Part shown: piece by piece, positions 9,086 to 13,892 of the stretch | Layout: each line of letters starts with the position of its first letter | How positions within the stretch are numbered: position 1 is the first letter of the stretch | Source of the DNA: a bacterium | GTDB taxonomy: Bacteria > SM23-81 > DAOVCL01 | Assembly: GCA_029932675.1 (NCBI GenBank) | Contig: JAOZPP010000080.1 | Coordinates: forward strand, 1-13,975 | Direction of reading: 5' to 3' | DNA length: 13,975 nucleotides | Made by a program: the position numbers and the translations under genes | The notes under the pieces: generated by a model | Databases searched by the model: none | What the model was told of the DNA's origin: nothing | Seen by the model: only the letters and a program-made list of their open reading frames with translations

Positions 9086-9357
9086 CTTACTCATTAGCTA
9101 CTTGGGTTTGCTTTTTGACCTGTAAGCCTTTCCTTCAAAGATATAACCCGAAATACGGACGTCAAGGCTTCATTATTTCCAAGAAATATTTACCTTTTCT
9201 GAGGAAAAGTTTCATTTTAGGTAGGTTTTTTTATTGCGAAAGGACCTCCTAAAGTAGCAGGAAAAATCGCTTGTTTTTTTAAGGTTTGGGGTTAATTTTA
9301 TAAACTGAAACCTTTACCTTTAGCAGTGCAAAGAATCCATGGAGATCAAATTATGAC
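9086..9357. other. AT-rich intergenic region with weak hairpins
   Basis: No convincing gene. It holds a 6-bp AT-rich hairpin, cttttc-tgag-gaaaag (9194-9209), followed by tttcatttt. This is a possible weak terminator for the branching-enzyme gene. A 7-bp inverted repeat aagcctt/aaggctt (9124-9130, 9164-9170) has a 33-nt gap. TCGCTTGTT (9267-9275) is the exact inverse of AACAAGCGA (9363-9371) inside the downstream promoter. Several T-runs (9225-9231, 9274-9280) are not attached to strong stems. Confidence 0.4.
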
Positions 9358-9386
9358 TTGACAACAAGCGACTTTTTTAGTAGAAT
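9358..9386 (+). promoter_or_regulatory. Near-consensus sigma70 promoter of the three-gene cassette
   Basis: A perfect TTGACA (9358-9363), a 17-nt spacer and TAGAAT (9381-9386, five of six). Expected start is about 9393, giving a leader of roughly 135 nt before ATG 9528. The leader contains a small hairpin, aacca-tatcc-tggtt (9413-9427). The spacer carries AACAAGCGA (9363-9371), whose inverse copy lies at 9267-9275, so a regulator could bind both sites. Confidence 0.7.
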
Positions 9387-9527
9387 ATTAGTTAATACTG
9401 AGTGACAAAAAGAACCATATCCTGGTTTTCTGGATGTTAATGACACTGGGGAAAACCATTTGAGTTTTTACGAAGCGGTAGATTGTTGTATAGAAAAGTA
9501 CCTCTTGAATGCGTAGAGAACAAACTT

Positions 9528-10193
9528 ATGGATAAATCAAAGTTCTTAACGAAGAGAGCCGCCTGCGAAATCAGATTTCCTCCGACGCCCGTCTATTATG
9601 AGAAGAAGACAGGTGTTTGGAAGAAATTTTCGCAGCACTTTCCACATTGGAATGTAAGTTATGTCGAATTGGAGCTATCAAACAAACAGAAGGAGATGGG
9701 TTTTAAGGCTACTTCGCGGAATGCTGTGTTTGTCTGCGATAACCTCTCTACATTGTCCAATTTTACAGACCTCGGATACAGGTTGTTAAGAGATTACACT
9801 AAAGAGTTAGGAATAACATCGCTGAACCGCATCGGTGTTAGAATATTCTATTTATGCGAAGCGGAGGGCTCCTTTGAAGATTTGAACAAGCTTATGATAG
9901 ATAAAATGTTCTCATTTCTTCCAGCCAAATCAAAGCCGACCGATATGGCTTACGTGCTAAATTTCGATCAAGGTAATTATCATTTCCATGTAGCTTTAGG
10001 GCCAGTTACCGACGAGGAGAGCAAGCGGCGATTAGATATGGAAGAGGGAACATTTCCCAAACTGTCTGTCTTTTTCGATGTAGATATATTTCAGAACAGC
10101 CTTTCTTGTGATGGGATTGAAACCTTTCTGCAGAAGTCCTGTAAAAAAAGCAGAGAAATTGCTCAGCAATTCGGAAACCAAATATTTGGATAG
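9528..10193 (+). CDS. TIGR04255-like family protein, function unknown
   Basis: 221 aa from ATG 9528, which has AGAG 9 nt upstream. An in-frame TTG at 9483 would add 15 residues but has no ribosome site. Layout resembles the sporadically distributed TIGR04255 family: an N-terminal strand CEIRFPP (13-19) after a short lead, a central part with RIGVRIFYLCEAEGSFEDL, and a late beta segment KLSVFFDVDIF, typical of that family's closing D-x-D-x-F strand. No signal peptide, membrane segment or catalytic motif is seen. It is first in a same-strand cassette: the next ATG is 12 nt after its stop, and that gene's AGGAGG overlaps the stop codon, so the two are probably translationally coupled. Base composition is more A+T-rich than in the metabolic operon. 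The family match is from memory of its pattern and is moderate. Confidence 0.7.
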   Translation: MDKSKFLTKRAACEIRFPPTPVYYEKKTGVWKKFSQHFPHWNVSYVELELSNKQKEMGFKATSRNAVFVCDNLSTLSNFTDLGYRLLRDYTKELGITSLNRIGVRIFYLCEAEGSFEDLNKLMIDKMFSFLPAKSKPTDMAYVLNFDQGNYHFHVALGPVTDEESKRRLDMEEGTFPKLSVFFDVDIFQNSLSCDGIETFLQKSCKKSREIAQQFGNQIFG

Positions 10194-10205
10194 GAGGCCT
10201 TAGAG

Positions 10206-10859
10206 ATGGCTGCTTTGCTCGATACTATTGATACAACCACTCAAAGAGATGGAAAAAGAGAGGCTGGCGCCATTTCCTCCCTAACCGTTACTACATGGCA
10301 ACTGGAAACAGAAGTCGATAAAGGGTTACGGGAAACCTCGCAAAAACCTGAGGTCAGTCGTTTAGGCCCTTTGGCCAGTGACTTGACATATCCAGAGCAG
10401 GAGTCTATGGCCGTGAGAGATCCGCAGACGCCCATGCTCCCACCGGTTACGGCTTTGGTGAGAGATGAATCGTTCGATTCTCTGGTATCTTCGATAGCAA
10501 CGTATGCTCGGGAAGAAGTTCTTGCTCATCTGGAGAGCGTGACAAAGCTTTTGACAGGGGTCAAGGAATCTTTCGAGGATGAAATGGATCGGCAGATATT
10601 GTTTTTTGAGGTAAAGGAACACCTGGGCAAGCTGTGGGAGATAGACTTTCCGAGAAACGACTATTTCCTTCAAGCTGTGTCCCTGCTGGAAGACTCCCTT
10701 GCCTATACTAAGTCCGAGGATCTGTCGAAGGAGCAAGTTGAAGGGCTTCTGGAGGTAGTTGAGATATGCAAAAGGGTAGATCTCTCAATAAATGATGTCC
10801 GCAGATGTGGAAGGATCTTGCGAAACAGAAGGATAGCCACAGTTCCAACTTTGAGTTAA
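10206..10859 (+). CDS. Hypothetical protein, disordered N-terminus and helical C-terminus
   Basis: 217 aa, not recognised. ATG 10206 follows AGGAGG by 8 nt, and the Shine-Dalgarno overlaps the stop of the preceding gene (TAGGAGG). Residues 1-90 are rich in Thr, Ser, Pro, Asp and Glu with few hydrophobic clusters, suggesting a flexible region. Residues 90-217 have a regular helical pattern (AREEVLAHLESVTKLL, QILFFEVKEHLGKLWEI, EQVEGLLEVVEICKR) ending in a basic tail (RRCGRILRNRRI). No catalytic motif, membrane segment or nucleic-acid-binding fold was found. Sitting directly before a PIN-like nuclease gene, it could be an adaptor or an inhibitor; this is inference. The stop TAA at 10857 is followed in the same frame, with no further stop, by the next gene's ATG at 10875. 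Confidence 0.7.
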   Translation: MAALLDTIDTTTQRDGKREAGAISSLTVTTWQLETEVDKGLRETSQKPEVSRLGPLASDLTYPEQESMAVRDPQTPMLPPVTALVRDESFDSLVSSIATYAREEVLAHLESVTKLLTGVKESFEDEMDRQILFFEVKEHLGKLWEIDFPRNDYFLQAVSLLEDSLAYTKSEDLSKEQVEGLLEVVEICKRVDLSINDVRRCGRILRNRRIATVPTLS

Positions 10860-10874
10860 GACAAACCTACCTTT

Positions 10875-11672
10875 ATGGAGAAGAAAGTTCAGCTTGATAC
10901 TACCATCCAGATATACAGAGCGTTTTCACATTCTTCAGTCAAGCGAGTTCTGGTAAAAATTCTTTCGCAATGCCAAGTTTTCGTCTCCCGATATGTTCTG
11001 TATGAGTTCAAGCGAACCCTGATAAAAGCTGTTATAACATTTTATACCTATGTTCGTGAGGAGCAAACTATAGATGACGCTTTAGATCGGGCAAGCAGAA
11101 CATTCAGCAGTCGCCAGAAGACGCATTTCATAAGCATTTTTCGAGAATTAGTTAAGAATCCGGGTATTGCCAAGGGGAACAAGGAACAGCTTCTCATTTG
11201 CCTTCAGAGGATGTTTGAGTGGGAGCTCTTGGATATCTTTGAGGAGGGCGTTTCCTATATTCCCGATCATATCCAGTGCACTCCCTCCAAAGCCGATCCA
11301 ACAGAGGGCATAACGCAATTTATTAAGCAGTTGCGGTGTCAAAAAGATTGGGATCAATGCAGCCTTCCCAGGTTCTTGAGATTAAAGCAGAAGCGACTCA
11401 GACGTTTGATGGACTTAAGTAAGTCTCCCGAATATCAGGGGAATAAGGGGTTTCAAACTCTTGCCTCTCTTTGTGGAAAGATTCTGGACGATTTCAACGA
11501 GTGTAAGGGCAACAACTGCAAGATATTGGGAGATATGATCATCGCTCTCGAAGTTCTACCAGAGAATATCCTTCTAACGAGCAATATTAGCGATTTCGAG
11601 CCGCCTTGTAAGGCCGTTAAGACATCGGTAAGGTTCATAAAGTACAGCGACCCCAAGGTGCCCAAGCTTTGA
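10875..11672 (+). CDS. Large PIN-like putative ribonuclease
   Basis: 265 aa. The N-terminal strand VQLDTTIQIYR (5-15) matches the PIN opening with metal-binding Asp8. VSRYVLYEFKRTL (37-49) supplies the expected Glu44. Near the C-terminus, ILGDMIIALEVLPENILLTSNISDF (217-241) matches the PIN block with Asp220 and the TxNxxDF-type Asp240. So four acidic residues of a Mg2+/Mn2+ RNase site appear in the right order. The protein is about twice the length of VapC toxins because of a long helical insert (about 60-200). It also has many cysteines (135, 155, 162, 200, 210, 215, 245) that could bind a metal. No Shine-Dalgarno precedes the ATG, 15 nt after the previous stop, so coupled translation is likely. 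An RNA-cleaving toxin or defence effector is a reasonable inference, not shown. Confidence 0.7.
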   Translation: MEKKVQLDTTIQIYRAFSHSSVKRVLVKILSQCQVFVSRYVLYEFKRTLIKAVITFYTYVREEQTIDDALDRASRTFSSRQKTHFISIFRELVKNPGIAKGNKEQLLICLQRMFEWELLDIFEEGVSYIPDHIQCTPSKADPTEGITQFIKQLRCQKDWDQCSLPRFLRLKQKRLRRLMDLSKSPEYQGNKGFQTLASLCGKILDDFNECKGNNCKILGDMIIALEVLPENILLTSNISDFEPPCKAVKTSVRFIKYSDPKVPKL

Positions 11673-11757: not shown

Positions 11758-11838
11758 TCAGATATCCGGATGCTCCAGCGATTCCAGTCTCTTCCGCAAA
11801 TACAGCTCTCTGTCCTTATTTCCGATATGCAAGTGAAC
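11758..11838 (-). pseudogene. Possible 3' remnant of an unidentified gene
   Basis: Read on the minus strand, this segment gives a 26-residue protein-like tail: VHLHIGNKDRELYLRKRLES then LEHPDI, ending in TGA at 11760-11758. Alternating charged and aliphatic residues look like an amphipathic helix. The frame has no start codon and runs upstream into GC-rich palindromes. It may be the end of a gene destroyed by repeat insertion. Chance cannot be excluded for so short a stretch. Confidence 0.2.
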
Positions 11839-11843
11839 CTCCC

Positions 11844-11963
11844 CCGCCCACAGGGCGGAGCATCCGAAACAGTTTCCTCCCCCTTGATGGGGGAGGACTA
11901 AGGGGGGTGAAAATTATATCCGTCTCCCCCCTCACCCTAACCCTTTCCCACCAGGGAAGAGGG
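11844..11963. repeat. Cluster of GC-rich palindromic repeats
   Basis: In order: ccgccc-aca-gggcgg (11844-11858); tcctccccc-ttgat-gggggagga (11875-11897, perfect 9-bp stem); agggggg/cccccct (11901-11907 with 11926-11932); and ccctttccc/gggaagaggg (11941-11949 with 11954-11963, imperfect). None is followed by a T-run, and they are packed head to tail. This is the look of dispersed palindromic repeats that accumulate between genes in many bacteria, rather than of a single terminator. Confidence 0.7.
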
Positions 11964-12036: not shown

Positions 12037-12061
12037 AAGCACTCTCTGCACCACCGTTCCC
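12037..12061 (+). repeat. Half-copy of the palindromic element found at 13846-13892
   Basis: Positions 12037-12061 match 13869-13893 at 23 of 25 bases (core ctgcaccaccgt). Here only the right arm and loop edge are present; no matching left arm (gggacggtggtg) is seen upstream. It lies 40 nt before the start of the lipoprotein gene. Confidence 0.75.
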
Positions 12062-12100: not shown

Positions 12101-13648
12101 ATGAAGCACAAAATTATACCAGTAAACTTCGCAGTCCCAATCTTGGGATGCCTTCTAATTCTTGGCTGTGCAACCATGCAATCCAGGTACAAGAAGGCGA
12201 AGCGAATCGATACAATTCCTGCTTACAAAGAATTCCTCAATAAGCACCCAGATAGTCCTTACAGCGCTGAAATAAACGCAAGAATTAAACAGCTAAATGA
12301 TGAAGCAATTTTTAAGGAAGTCGAATCTAAAAATACCACCTCTGCCTATAAAACCTTTATCGATCAATATCCCAATAATATATTCATAGAAGAGGCTCAA
12401 AGAAGGATTACCCAATCAGATCTAGAAGCATATATAAGAACATGGAGGCTGGGCGCAGTTCAGCCATTTCGAGGTTTCATAGAGAGTTACCCAACTAGCA
12501 AGTACATTCCAGAAGCAAAAGCCCGTATACACTTTCTCGAGATGGTAACTCAATCTACTATAGGGGCTTATAGGAAGTTTATTGAACACTGTCCACACAG
12601 TCCGTTTATTTCTGAAGCAAAATCAACTTTTCCAATACTCTGGTTATGTGGTGACACTGCTGCAGTTGTGATAGACATTTATAAAGCGTACTCTGCAAAC
12701 TCTGATACCGTTCGTAAAGAACTCTGGCATCAGGTTCAAAATGGATTGGAAAAGATAGGCTTACAAGGAATTCTTGTAGATATGGACTATCTGAAAGGAG
12801 CCAACTATCCAAGGAGGTATCCGATATCAGCAGGACAGAAGAGGTACATCATCCATCGTCTTGCGGAGGCCTTTAACGATAAGAAAGTATCAGCTTTGCT
12901 TGTTATTGACTATACAGAGGAACCCTTACGGAGGAGGCGCGAGCCTTATAGTCTATCTCCGACACAGTATAATATAGAGAAAGCGCAAGAGAATATTTTA
13001 ACACTGCTTTATGGCCCCAGACTTTATATCGATTTTACAGTCTCTATCAAGGATGCAGAAACGCTCGAAGACTATTATTCCAGACGTTTCGTTACCATAA
13101 GAGAGCATTGGATATATGGGGGTAAAGAATTTGATTTAGGAGAATTTCTCCAAGTTAAAGCTTCTCTCCCTGAGCTTATCACAGCGCTGGGGCAGAGCCG
13201 AGATGCTCAAGCTACAATGTTTCTAATTACAGCCTTGAGCAATGACAATTTATACTATGATCTTTTCTCGCAGATTTATAGATGCCCTCATTGTGGGAGA
13301 CGCATAACAGACGTAATATGTGAACCGGACATAATACATAACCCGAACGGATGGCCTAAGTGCCCTTACTGTGACGGTCCCCTCGCATGGCTTGGGGATA
13401 CTTATAAAACGCCTCAAAAATGTGCAATAAATGCTTTAAAAAAGATAGAAAAACCCCCCGTAGAGCTGCTAATTACGCTCTTAAAAGATAAGAGCCCACA
13501 AGTTCGAATTGGCGTTATAGATGCTCTAGAAACTGTGGGAGGTGAACAAGTGAGAGAACATCTGGAGGAGGTCTTTCAAAATGACTCAGATCTTAATGTG
13601 CGTAAAGCAGCTAAAGAAGCATTGGAGAAGATCTCGCAGTCCAGATAA
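12101..13648 (+). CDS. Lipoprotein with TPR-like repeats, zinc ribbon and HEAT-like repeats
   Basis: 515 aa; ATG 12101 follows AAGGAGG with good spacing. Residues 1-23 form a lipoprotein signal (MKHK, hydrophobic core, LLILGC, Cys23; ILGC at 14-17 is an alternative). Four degenerate ~35-residue repeats follow, each with an AYKxFIxxYPxSxYxxEAxxRI pattern (about 40-64, 82-104, 122-146, 156-176). They resemble tetratricopeptide-like repeats of outer-membrane lipoproteins such as BamD. Residues 180-350 are unrecognised, mixed alpha/beta. A likely zinc ribbon has Cys395, Cys398, Cys421 and Cys424 (CPHC...CPYC). It appears inserted between helical repeats, since 355-390 and 440-513 look like HEAT repeats (PPVELLITLLKDKSPQVRIG, then a second copy after 485). 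A reduced CxxC zinc ribbon in an exported protein is unusual. It is probably a scaffold for protein contacts at the envelope. The partner is unknown. Confidence 0.8.
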   Translation: MKHKIIPVNFAVPILGCLLILGCATMQSRYKKAKRIDTIPAYKEFLNKHPDSPYSAEINARIKQLNDEAIFKEVESKNTTSAYKTFIDQYPNNIFIEEAQRRITQSDLEAYIRTWRLGAVQPFRGFIESYPTSKYIPEAKARIHFLEMVTQSTIGAYRKFIEHCPHSPFISEAKSTFPILWLCGDTAAVVIDIYKAYSANSDTVRKELWHQVQNGLEKIGLQGILVDMDYLKGANYPRRYPISAGQKRYIIHRLAEAFNDKKVSALLVIDYTEEPLRRRREPYSLSPTQYNIEKAQENILTLLYGPRLYIDFTVSIKDAETLEDYYSRRFVTIREHWIYGGKEFDLGEFLQVKASLPELITALGQSRDAQATMFLITALSNDNLYYDLFSQIYRCPHCGRRITDVICEPDIIHNPNGWPKCPYCDGPLAWLGDTYKTPQKCAINALKKIEKPPVELLITLLKDKSPQVRIGVIDALETVGGEQVREHLEEVFQNDSDLNVRKAAKEALEKISQSR

Positions 13649-13845: not shown

Positions 13846-13892
13846 GGGACGGTGGTGTAGAAATTGCCAAGCACTTTCTGCACCACCGTCCC
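13846..13892. repeat. 18-bp palindromic element (REP-like)
   Basis: gggacggtggtgtagaaa (13846-13863) and tttctgcaccaccgtccc (13875-13892) pair over 18 bp with one T/C difference (a G:U pair in RNA). The loop is 11 nt (ttgccaagcac). No T-run follows. The right arm plus part of the loop recurs at 12037-12061. The form fits a REP-type or miniature transposable element. A link to a Y1 REP transposase is inference; no such gene is in the window. Confidence 0.75.

Follow-up and report, generated by a model that had tools for sequence, protein, structure and literature searches.

A bacterial three-gene cassette with a TIGR04255-like first gene as a candidate tripartite toxin-antitoxin unit

Introduction

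In the two-gene VapBC module, a PIN toxin is paired with an antitoxin that carries a DNA-binding domain. Three-part modules are represented by TAC (such as Mtb HigBA-SecB(TA) and CmdTAC), in which a SecB-like chaperone protects the antitoxin via a transferable segment and several toxin families are used (PMC5105189, PMC11618068). In CmdTAC, a phage capsid protein draws the chaperone off, and the antitoxin is then degraded (PMC5105189, PMC11618068).

Here, a three-gene cassette is compared with these systems. It lies in a stretch of 13,975 bases (hereafter the window), which is one whole contig of a 3.03-Mb bacterial genome assembled in 116 contigs. The source group is sparsely sequenced: the 193 relatives taken include one from the same genus and two more from the same phylum. 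A first-pass annotation, made from the letters of the window, had proposed that the cassette is a movable defence or toxin-antitoxin-type unit. Our analysis indicates that it is probably a tripartite toxin-antitoxin unit with a TAC-like build, in which a TIGR04255-like protein would be the constant partner. It looks like a divergent member of an apparently undescribed group of such cassettes, whose antitoxin and toxin genes would be exchanged around the constant protein.

Organization and Genomic Setting of the Cassette

The cassette follows a metabolic operon, which on reading extends from recJ to a GH57-like gene, and the two are separated by an AT-rich intergenic gap of approximately 440-445 nt. 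The main features of the locus are listed in Table 1. No second promoter with an 11/12 match could be found on either strand of the window, and 0.0095 such sites would be expected in the 445-nt intergenic region, which agrees with the strong dedicated promoter that had been noticed at first pass. The three closely spaced same-strand genes were recovered with exactly the coordinates given before, with gaps of 12 nt and 15 nt between the open reading frames (ORFs). Gene 2 is preceded by an AGGAGG motif located 8 nt upstream of its ATG, and the frames of 217 and 265 aa are both longer than the longest frame (202 aa) in 300 shuffles of the region. For gene 1, the ATG at 9528 is the most likely start rather than the TTG at 9483, because its relatives align from this ATG. 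The 14-nt arm of the inverted repeat has 2 matches in the window versus 0.34 expected, and the repeat, one arm of which lies in the promoter, may be an operator. Searches for Rfam families, tRNAs, and leader-RNA structures returned nothing.

Table 1. Positions of the cassette features in the window
Feature	Position	Strand	Basis or remark
Inverted repeat (14 nt), left arm, AAAAATCGCTTGTT	9262..9275	+	Candidate operator half-site, suggestive
Inverted repeat, right arm	9363..9376	-	Overlaps the -35 end and spacer of the promoter
Sigma-70-type promoter, TTGACA-17-TAGAAT	9358..9386	+	11/12 match
Gene 1, TIGR04255-like putative constant partner, 221 aa	9528..10193	+	Homologues, profile match, model, fold search
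Ribosome-binding site AGGAGG of gene 2	10192..10197	+	Sequence; overlaps the gene 1 stop codon
Gene 2, middle protein, proposed antitoxin/adaptor, 217 aa	10206..10859	+	Operon position, two-part composition
Gene 3, PIN-like, proposed ribonuclease toxin, 265 aa, ~145-residue insertion	10875..11672	+	Four acids, weak PIN HMM score
Codon of D8 (PIN acid 1)	10896..10898	+	Sequence
Codon of E44 (PIN acid 2)	11004..11006	+	Sequence
Codon of D220 (PIN acid 3)	11532..11534	+	Sequence
Codon of D240 (PIN acid 4, in LLTSNISDF)	11592..11594	+	Sequence

The distinct composition that had been ascribed to the trio was confirmed in part. Its GC content (0.41-0.48) is lower than that of the upstream genes (0.49-0.53), but other loci of the same genome have values of 0.43-0.49, which suggests that the upstream operon is GC-rich and that the trio is not clearly foreign. 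Likewise, repeats are present, but no pair of them brackets the trio; the clear ones (12037-12061 and 13846-13892) flank the next gene. The mobility of the unit received no support, as neither a mobile gene nor a bracketing repeat marks the window copy.

Several other features were observed in the window. A C/G-rich, repeat-like intergenic stretch (11838-11960) that contains a hairpin (CCTCCCCCTTGATGGGGGAGG, approximately 11880-11900) is located downstream of gene 3, and it was not found in the other loci compared; a genome search ruled out that the terminal hairpin is a genome-wide repeat. The repeats around the next gene consist of a hairpin with 22-nt arms and a partial copy, and few copies occur elsewhere in the genome. 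The ORF between them (12101-13648) is lipoprotein-like and unites BamD/TPR-like repeats, a zinc-ribbon CxxC pair, and a C-terminal HEAT domain, which is an unusual combination. A fragment of a DDE transposase (PF01609) is present at the start of the contig (3-635).

Gene 1 and Its Relatives

No match was found between gene 1 and the models of Pfam, NCBIfam, PHROG, and PADLOC, or, up to an E-value of 10, the curated TIGR04255 HMM (cut-off 30 bits), and gene 1 is absent from the matches of this HMM in its own genome. By contrast, profile-profile comparison (hhalign) aligned gene 1 with TIGR04255 over 181 columns (probability 93.9%, E 1.6e-7) and the gene 1 subfamily with TIGR04255 at 96% (E 4.3e-9), and a PIN alignment used as negative control remained under 1%. 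Gene 1 is closer to its own subfamily (E 2.4e-15 by profile comparison), which is present in several other phyla, than to TIGR04255. Judged by these profiles, gene 1 is a member of the TIGR04255 kin but lies outside the curated family, so the TIGR04255-like label given at first pass holds with this restriction.

Relatives of gene 1 were identified in 2 genomes by a whole-genome search, and then in 8 genomes from the phylum of the first of these. A contig scan that used a closer subset of sequences (alignment A3 being too divergent) added 9 contigs, which are labelled Zixibacteria, Planctomycetales, Omnitrophota, Aminicenantes, Syntrophales, Parcubacteria, and one unnamed bacterium. None was found in phages, plasmids, and viral contigs.

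A structural model of gene 1 built from nine sequences (pLDDT 80.7, pTM 0.80) has a duplicated beta-alpha arrangement, and its best structural matches are TATA-binding proteins (TBP; Foldseek probability 0.99, E ~1e-3). Comparison with TBP by VIA gave Z-scores of 7.0-7.6 over 155-159 residues, and according to the tool values below 8 may reflect merely a common arrangement. The model is thus suggestive of a duplicated TBP-like saddle, a weak resemblance that proves neither kinship nor DNA binding. A SecB-like identity of gene 1 obtained no support in the fold search, as SecB is not among the matches listed, which excludes nothing.

The untruncated relatives of gene 1 are immediately followed by a gene encoding a protein of 140-160 residues. 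By eye, this partner has a polar N-terminus and usually two hydrophobic segments near the C-terminus, with one clear segment in L097/L098. Most close relatives of gene 1 have a small membrane protein as partner and no PIN gene, and gene 2 of the window occupies the same slot but lacks such hydrophobic segments. Reading of the neighbouring proteins placed the pair after HsdM and HsdS in one locus (L092), next to DNA methylases or restriction genes in others (L021, L022, L096, and L097/L098), and next to a reverse transcriptase in L095. The subfamily gene together with the small membrane protein in such restriction-modification, methylase, and reverse-transcriptase loci is a candidate two-gene defence add-on.

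TIGR04255 Loci in Other Genomes

The TIGR04255 model was run against 60 genomes and then against 290, and 33 of the 290 carry the family. Nearly all of the 35 loci that were read have a touching middle gene followed by a variable third gene. Among the cleanly called loci, the next gene lies within 25 nt of the TIGR04255 gene in 29/29 and touches or overlaps it in 25/29; the short middle genes of L062 and L064, which the automatic ORF choice had missed, were read by eye. The three-gene architecture of a TIGR04255 gene, a middle gene, and a variable third gene is therefore recurrent. The literal trio of the window was not met again in unrelated genomes, as gene 2 had no relatives in 332 genomes and gene 3 none in 386.

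Different types of third genes could be distinguished. A PIN protein was identified by Pfam in L062, L068, L070, and L073 and by a local PIN HMM in L066 (E 8.5e-8). PIN third genes in 5 of approximately 33 loci would correspond to p ~1e-6 at a chance of 0.6% and 1e-4 at 1.5%, both background rates being assumed and informed by the 11 PIN genes of the window's 3.03-Mb genome. Five homologous third genes form a HEPN-like cluster, the one tested of which matched Pfam HEPN slightly under the cut-off (E 5.7e-4). A group labelled by eye as 'SQSCDL' comprises 5 third genes by sequence clustering and others by eye, and there are two further groups of small proteins. The third gene of L057 encodes a DUF7689 protein. 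HicB/HicA-like and MazF-like pairs were also labelled by eye, and Pfam gave no match for the tested third genes of the 'SQSCDL', HicB/HicA-like, and MazF-like types.

The window's own genome contains another TIGR04255 trio, a canonical one (contig C36, L083:5055-6569), in which the partners look HicB/HicA-like by eye, and the sister species carries the same trio (L084). Thermus, Crinalium, Methylocystis, and Rhizobium plasmids (L124, L125, L126, and L127) also carry TIGR04255 genes, and VapC, Cas6, an abortive-infection protein, and multiubiquitin with ThiF genes are among the neighbours annotated there. Defence surroundings, for which the first-pass annotation had proposed a check, were encountered both here and in the restriction-modification loci of the gene 1 subfamily. 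None of the TIGR04255 proteins tested matched the PADLOC 2023 models.

Middle Genes and Gene 2

Gene 2 consists of a polar N-terminal region of approximately 80 residues and a helical-looking C-terminal part. Pfam identified no domain in it, and it resembles none of the middle genes read. For genes 2 and 3, the plasmids, phages, viral and genome contigs, and the PDB yielded only chance-level matches; the best match of gene 2 (L130) was rejected as a membrane transporter.

The middle genes of other loci are more informative. That of L074 is a SocA/Panacea antitoxin (E 3.4e-16). In L062 and L070, both of them PIN loci, the middle gene closes like a VapB-type antitoxin: its last part reads '..GLG.EIWRGVDP..YV..LRDEW', and the ordinary antitoxin ahead of PIN gene L101 in the window's genome has the related ending GLGKGLWEGENAQEYINRLRE. 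The middle genes beside PIN genes have no obvious DNA-binding head.

One middle protein (L059:854-1543) is chimeric. Residues 5-92 correspond to the middle protein of L088 (E 1e-8), a locus with an SQSCDL-type third gene, and residues 89-227 correspond to the middle proteins of L075 and L077 (E 1e-26), two loci with third genes of the same type as that of L059. This gene is a natural domain swap between two TIGR04255 partner types, which implies that middle proteins can exchange their N-half and that the C-half travels with the third gene. Most simply, the N-half would be the part that works with the constant first protein, and the C-half the part that works with the third. Across the middle proteins, the N-termini contain fewer hydrophobic residues than the rest (p 1.2e-4) but are only marginally disorder-like (p 0.045), and the polar, disorder-like stretch of gene 2 is also N-terminal.

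Gene 3 as a PIN-Like Protein

The four acidic PIN residues of gene 3 (D8, E44, D220, and D240) were found exactly as described at first pass, and the order LDTT...YEF...LGDMIIAL...LLTSNISDF parallels the strands and acids of PIN domains. Pfam PIN (PF01850) did not match gene 3, either whole or without the insertion. A local PIN HMM, which was built from 13 proteins (9 from the window's genome and 4 from TIGR04255 loci), gave the N-terminal part of gene 3 a score of 13.2 bits, compared with a best score of 7.2 among approximately 2,200 shuffles, and this score also exceeds that of every other non-PIN ORF in the set; the C-terminal part adds no score. A single-sequence structural model of gene 3 was helical (pLDDT 52.6, with most of both ends below 40) and was discarded as uninformative. 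Despite the failure of Pfam, gene 3 is therefore likely to be a PIN protein on account of its acid order and N-terminal HMM score. The large PIN-like nuclease of the first-pass annotation accordingly retains its motif and a weak HMM score, but not a Pfam match or an informative model.

Proposed Function and Alternative Explanations

A toxin-antitoxin reading of the cassette, which had been put forward before as part of a broader guess, is well supported by analogy with the antitoxin-like middle genes and the PIN and HEPN-like third genes of other loci. It builds on several observations, namely the operon, the relationship of gene 1 to TIGR04255, the TIGR04255/middle/third architecture that recurs in other genomes, the antitoxin domain, and the chimeric middle gene; the second trio in the same genome and the defence surroundings also speak for it. 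As relatives of genes 2 and 3 could not be detected, the roles assigned to these genes rest on position and motif. Further points against the reading are the missing Pfam PIN match of gene 3, the C-terminal piece that gains no PIN score, the dissimilarity of gene 2 to the middle genes read, and the membrane-protein partners, with no PIN gene, of most close gene 1 relatives. In the tripartite unit that we regard as probable, gene 3 would be a PIN-type ribonuclease toxin that cuts RNA, and gene 2 would be the antitoxin that inhibits it, with the C-terminal part holding the toxin and the polar N-terminal part docking on gene 1. Gene 1 may stabilise the antitoxin or sense trouble, and its loss or capture, perhaps during phage infection, would free the nuclease and stop growth. 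The cassette might also regulate its own expression.

An unlikely alternative is that gene 1 is a TBP-fold DNA-binding regulator of a toxin-antitoxin pair formed by genes 2 and 3, which would act on the promoter and not on the antitoxin. The first rank of TATA-binding proteins in the fold search, the inverted repeat overlapping the promoter, and the middle genes beside PIN genes without an obvious DNA-binding head are all compatible with such a regulator. However, VIA scores below 8 may reflect no more than a common arrangement, the chimeric middle gene suggests protein-protein docking via the N-half, and the membrane-partner subfamily has no obvious need for a dedicated repressor. A somewhat smaller probability is given to the view that the four acids are a coincidence and that gene 3 is a helical protein unrelated to PIN. 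The N-terminal HMM score above all shuffles and other non-PIN ORFs argues against it, as do the D..E..D..TxNxxDF order, which runs along the PIN strands just as it does in PIN proteins from the other loci, and the recurrence of PIN in the third slot, although the lack of a Pfam match, the low-confidence helical model, and the C-terminal piece without score speak in its favour.

It is very unlikely that genes 1 and 2 are the sensor and effector of a two-part unit, on the model of the TIGR04255-like plus membrane-protein pairs in restriction loci, with gene 3 as an unrelated chance neighbour. Gene 2 lacks membrane helices, gene 3 lies on the same strand only 15 nt downstream, and PIN recurs as third gene in TIGR04255 operons, whereas the close relatives of gene 1, being two-gene units of which several are in defence loci, point in the other direction.

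If the cassette is a tripartite toxin-antitoxin unit, as preferred here, the link would provide the first testable role for TIGR04255, a family that is widespread and owes its name solely to its patchy occurrence. It is further suggested that the 'constant partner, swappable toxin' design has arisen with a non-SecB partner, and the chimeric middle gene pinpoints the segment of interest. More tentatively, TIGR04255 and its relatives could be the TBP-like-fold hub of a large, undescribed class of modular three-part toxin-antitoxin or phage-defence systems. The antitoxin would dock on this hub through an exchangeable segment at its N-terminus, and effectors of the PIN, HEPN, membrane, and other types would be swapped behind it; the window version would combine a large-insert PIN toxin with an antitoxin that has no assigned family. 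If the partner senses phage, the cassette would be a modular defence platform.

Comparison with Known Systems

The cassette shares features with several described groups. SocA/Panacea (PanAT) is connected with it through the Panacea antitoxin that serves as middle gene in one TIGR04255 locus, but the window cassette contains no Panacea domain. VapBC resembles it in the PIN-type third gene and in the middle genes of two PIN loci that end like an ordinary PIN-gene antitoxin. The differences are that the cassette has three genes, that the middle genes have no obvious DNA-binding head, and that gene 3 has approximately twice the usual size and carries a large insertion.

With the TIGR04255 family (NCBIfam TIGR04255.1, 'sporadically distributed'), the cassette has in common the place of gene 1 in the operon, ahead of a middle gene and a third one. 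It differs in that gene 1 falls below the family HMM and is nearer to the subfamily paired with small membrane proteins. The 5.39 million papers searched, which do not include subscription-only papers and preprints, contain no mention of TIGR04255 or IPR026349, and no experiment on these operons came to light; the group appears to be undescribed, although an earlier report is possible.

The likeness to TAC lies in the three genes and in one constant partner for several toxin families. The constant partner is SecB-like in TAC, whereas it is TIGR04255-like with a TBP-like model here. A transferable partner-recognition segment in the antitoxin has been demonstrated for TAC, where it is C-terminal (ChAD), and in TIGR04255 cassettes we infer a corresponding segment, which is proposed to be N-terminal. 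The cassette may therefore work like TAC, of which it is not claimed to be a member, and it is probably a three-part toxin-antitoxin system built around another constant partner.
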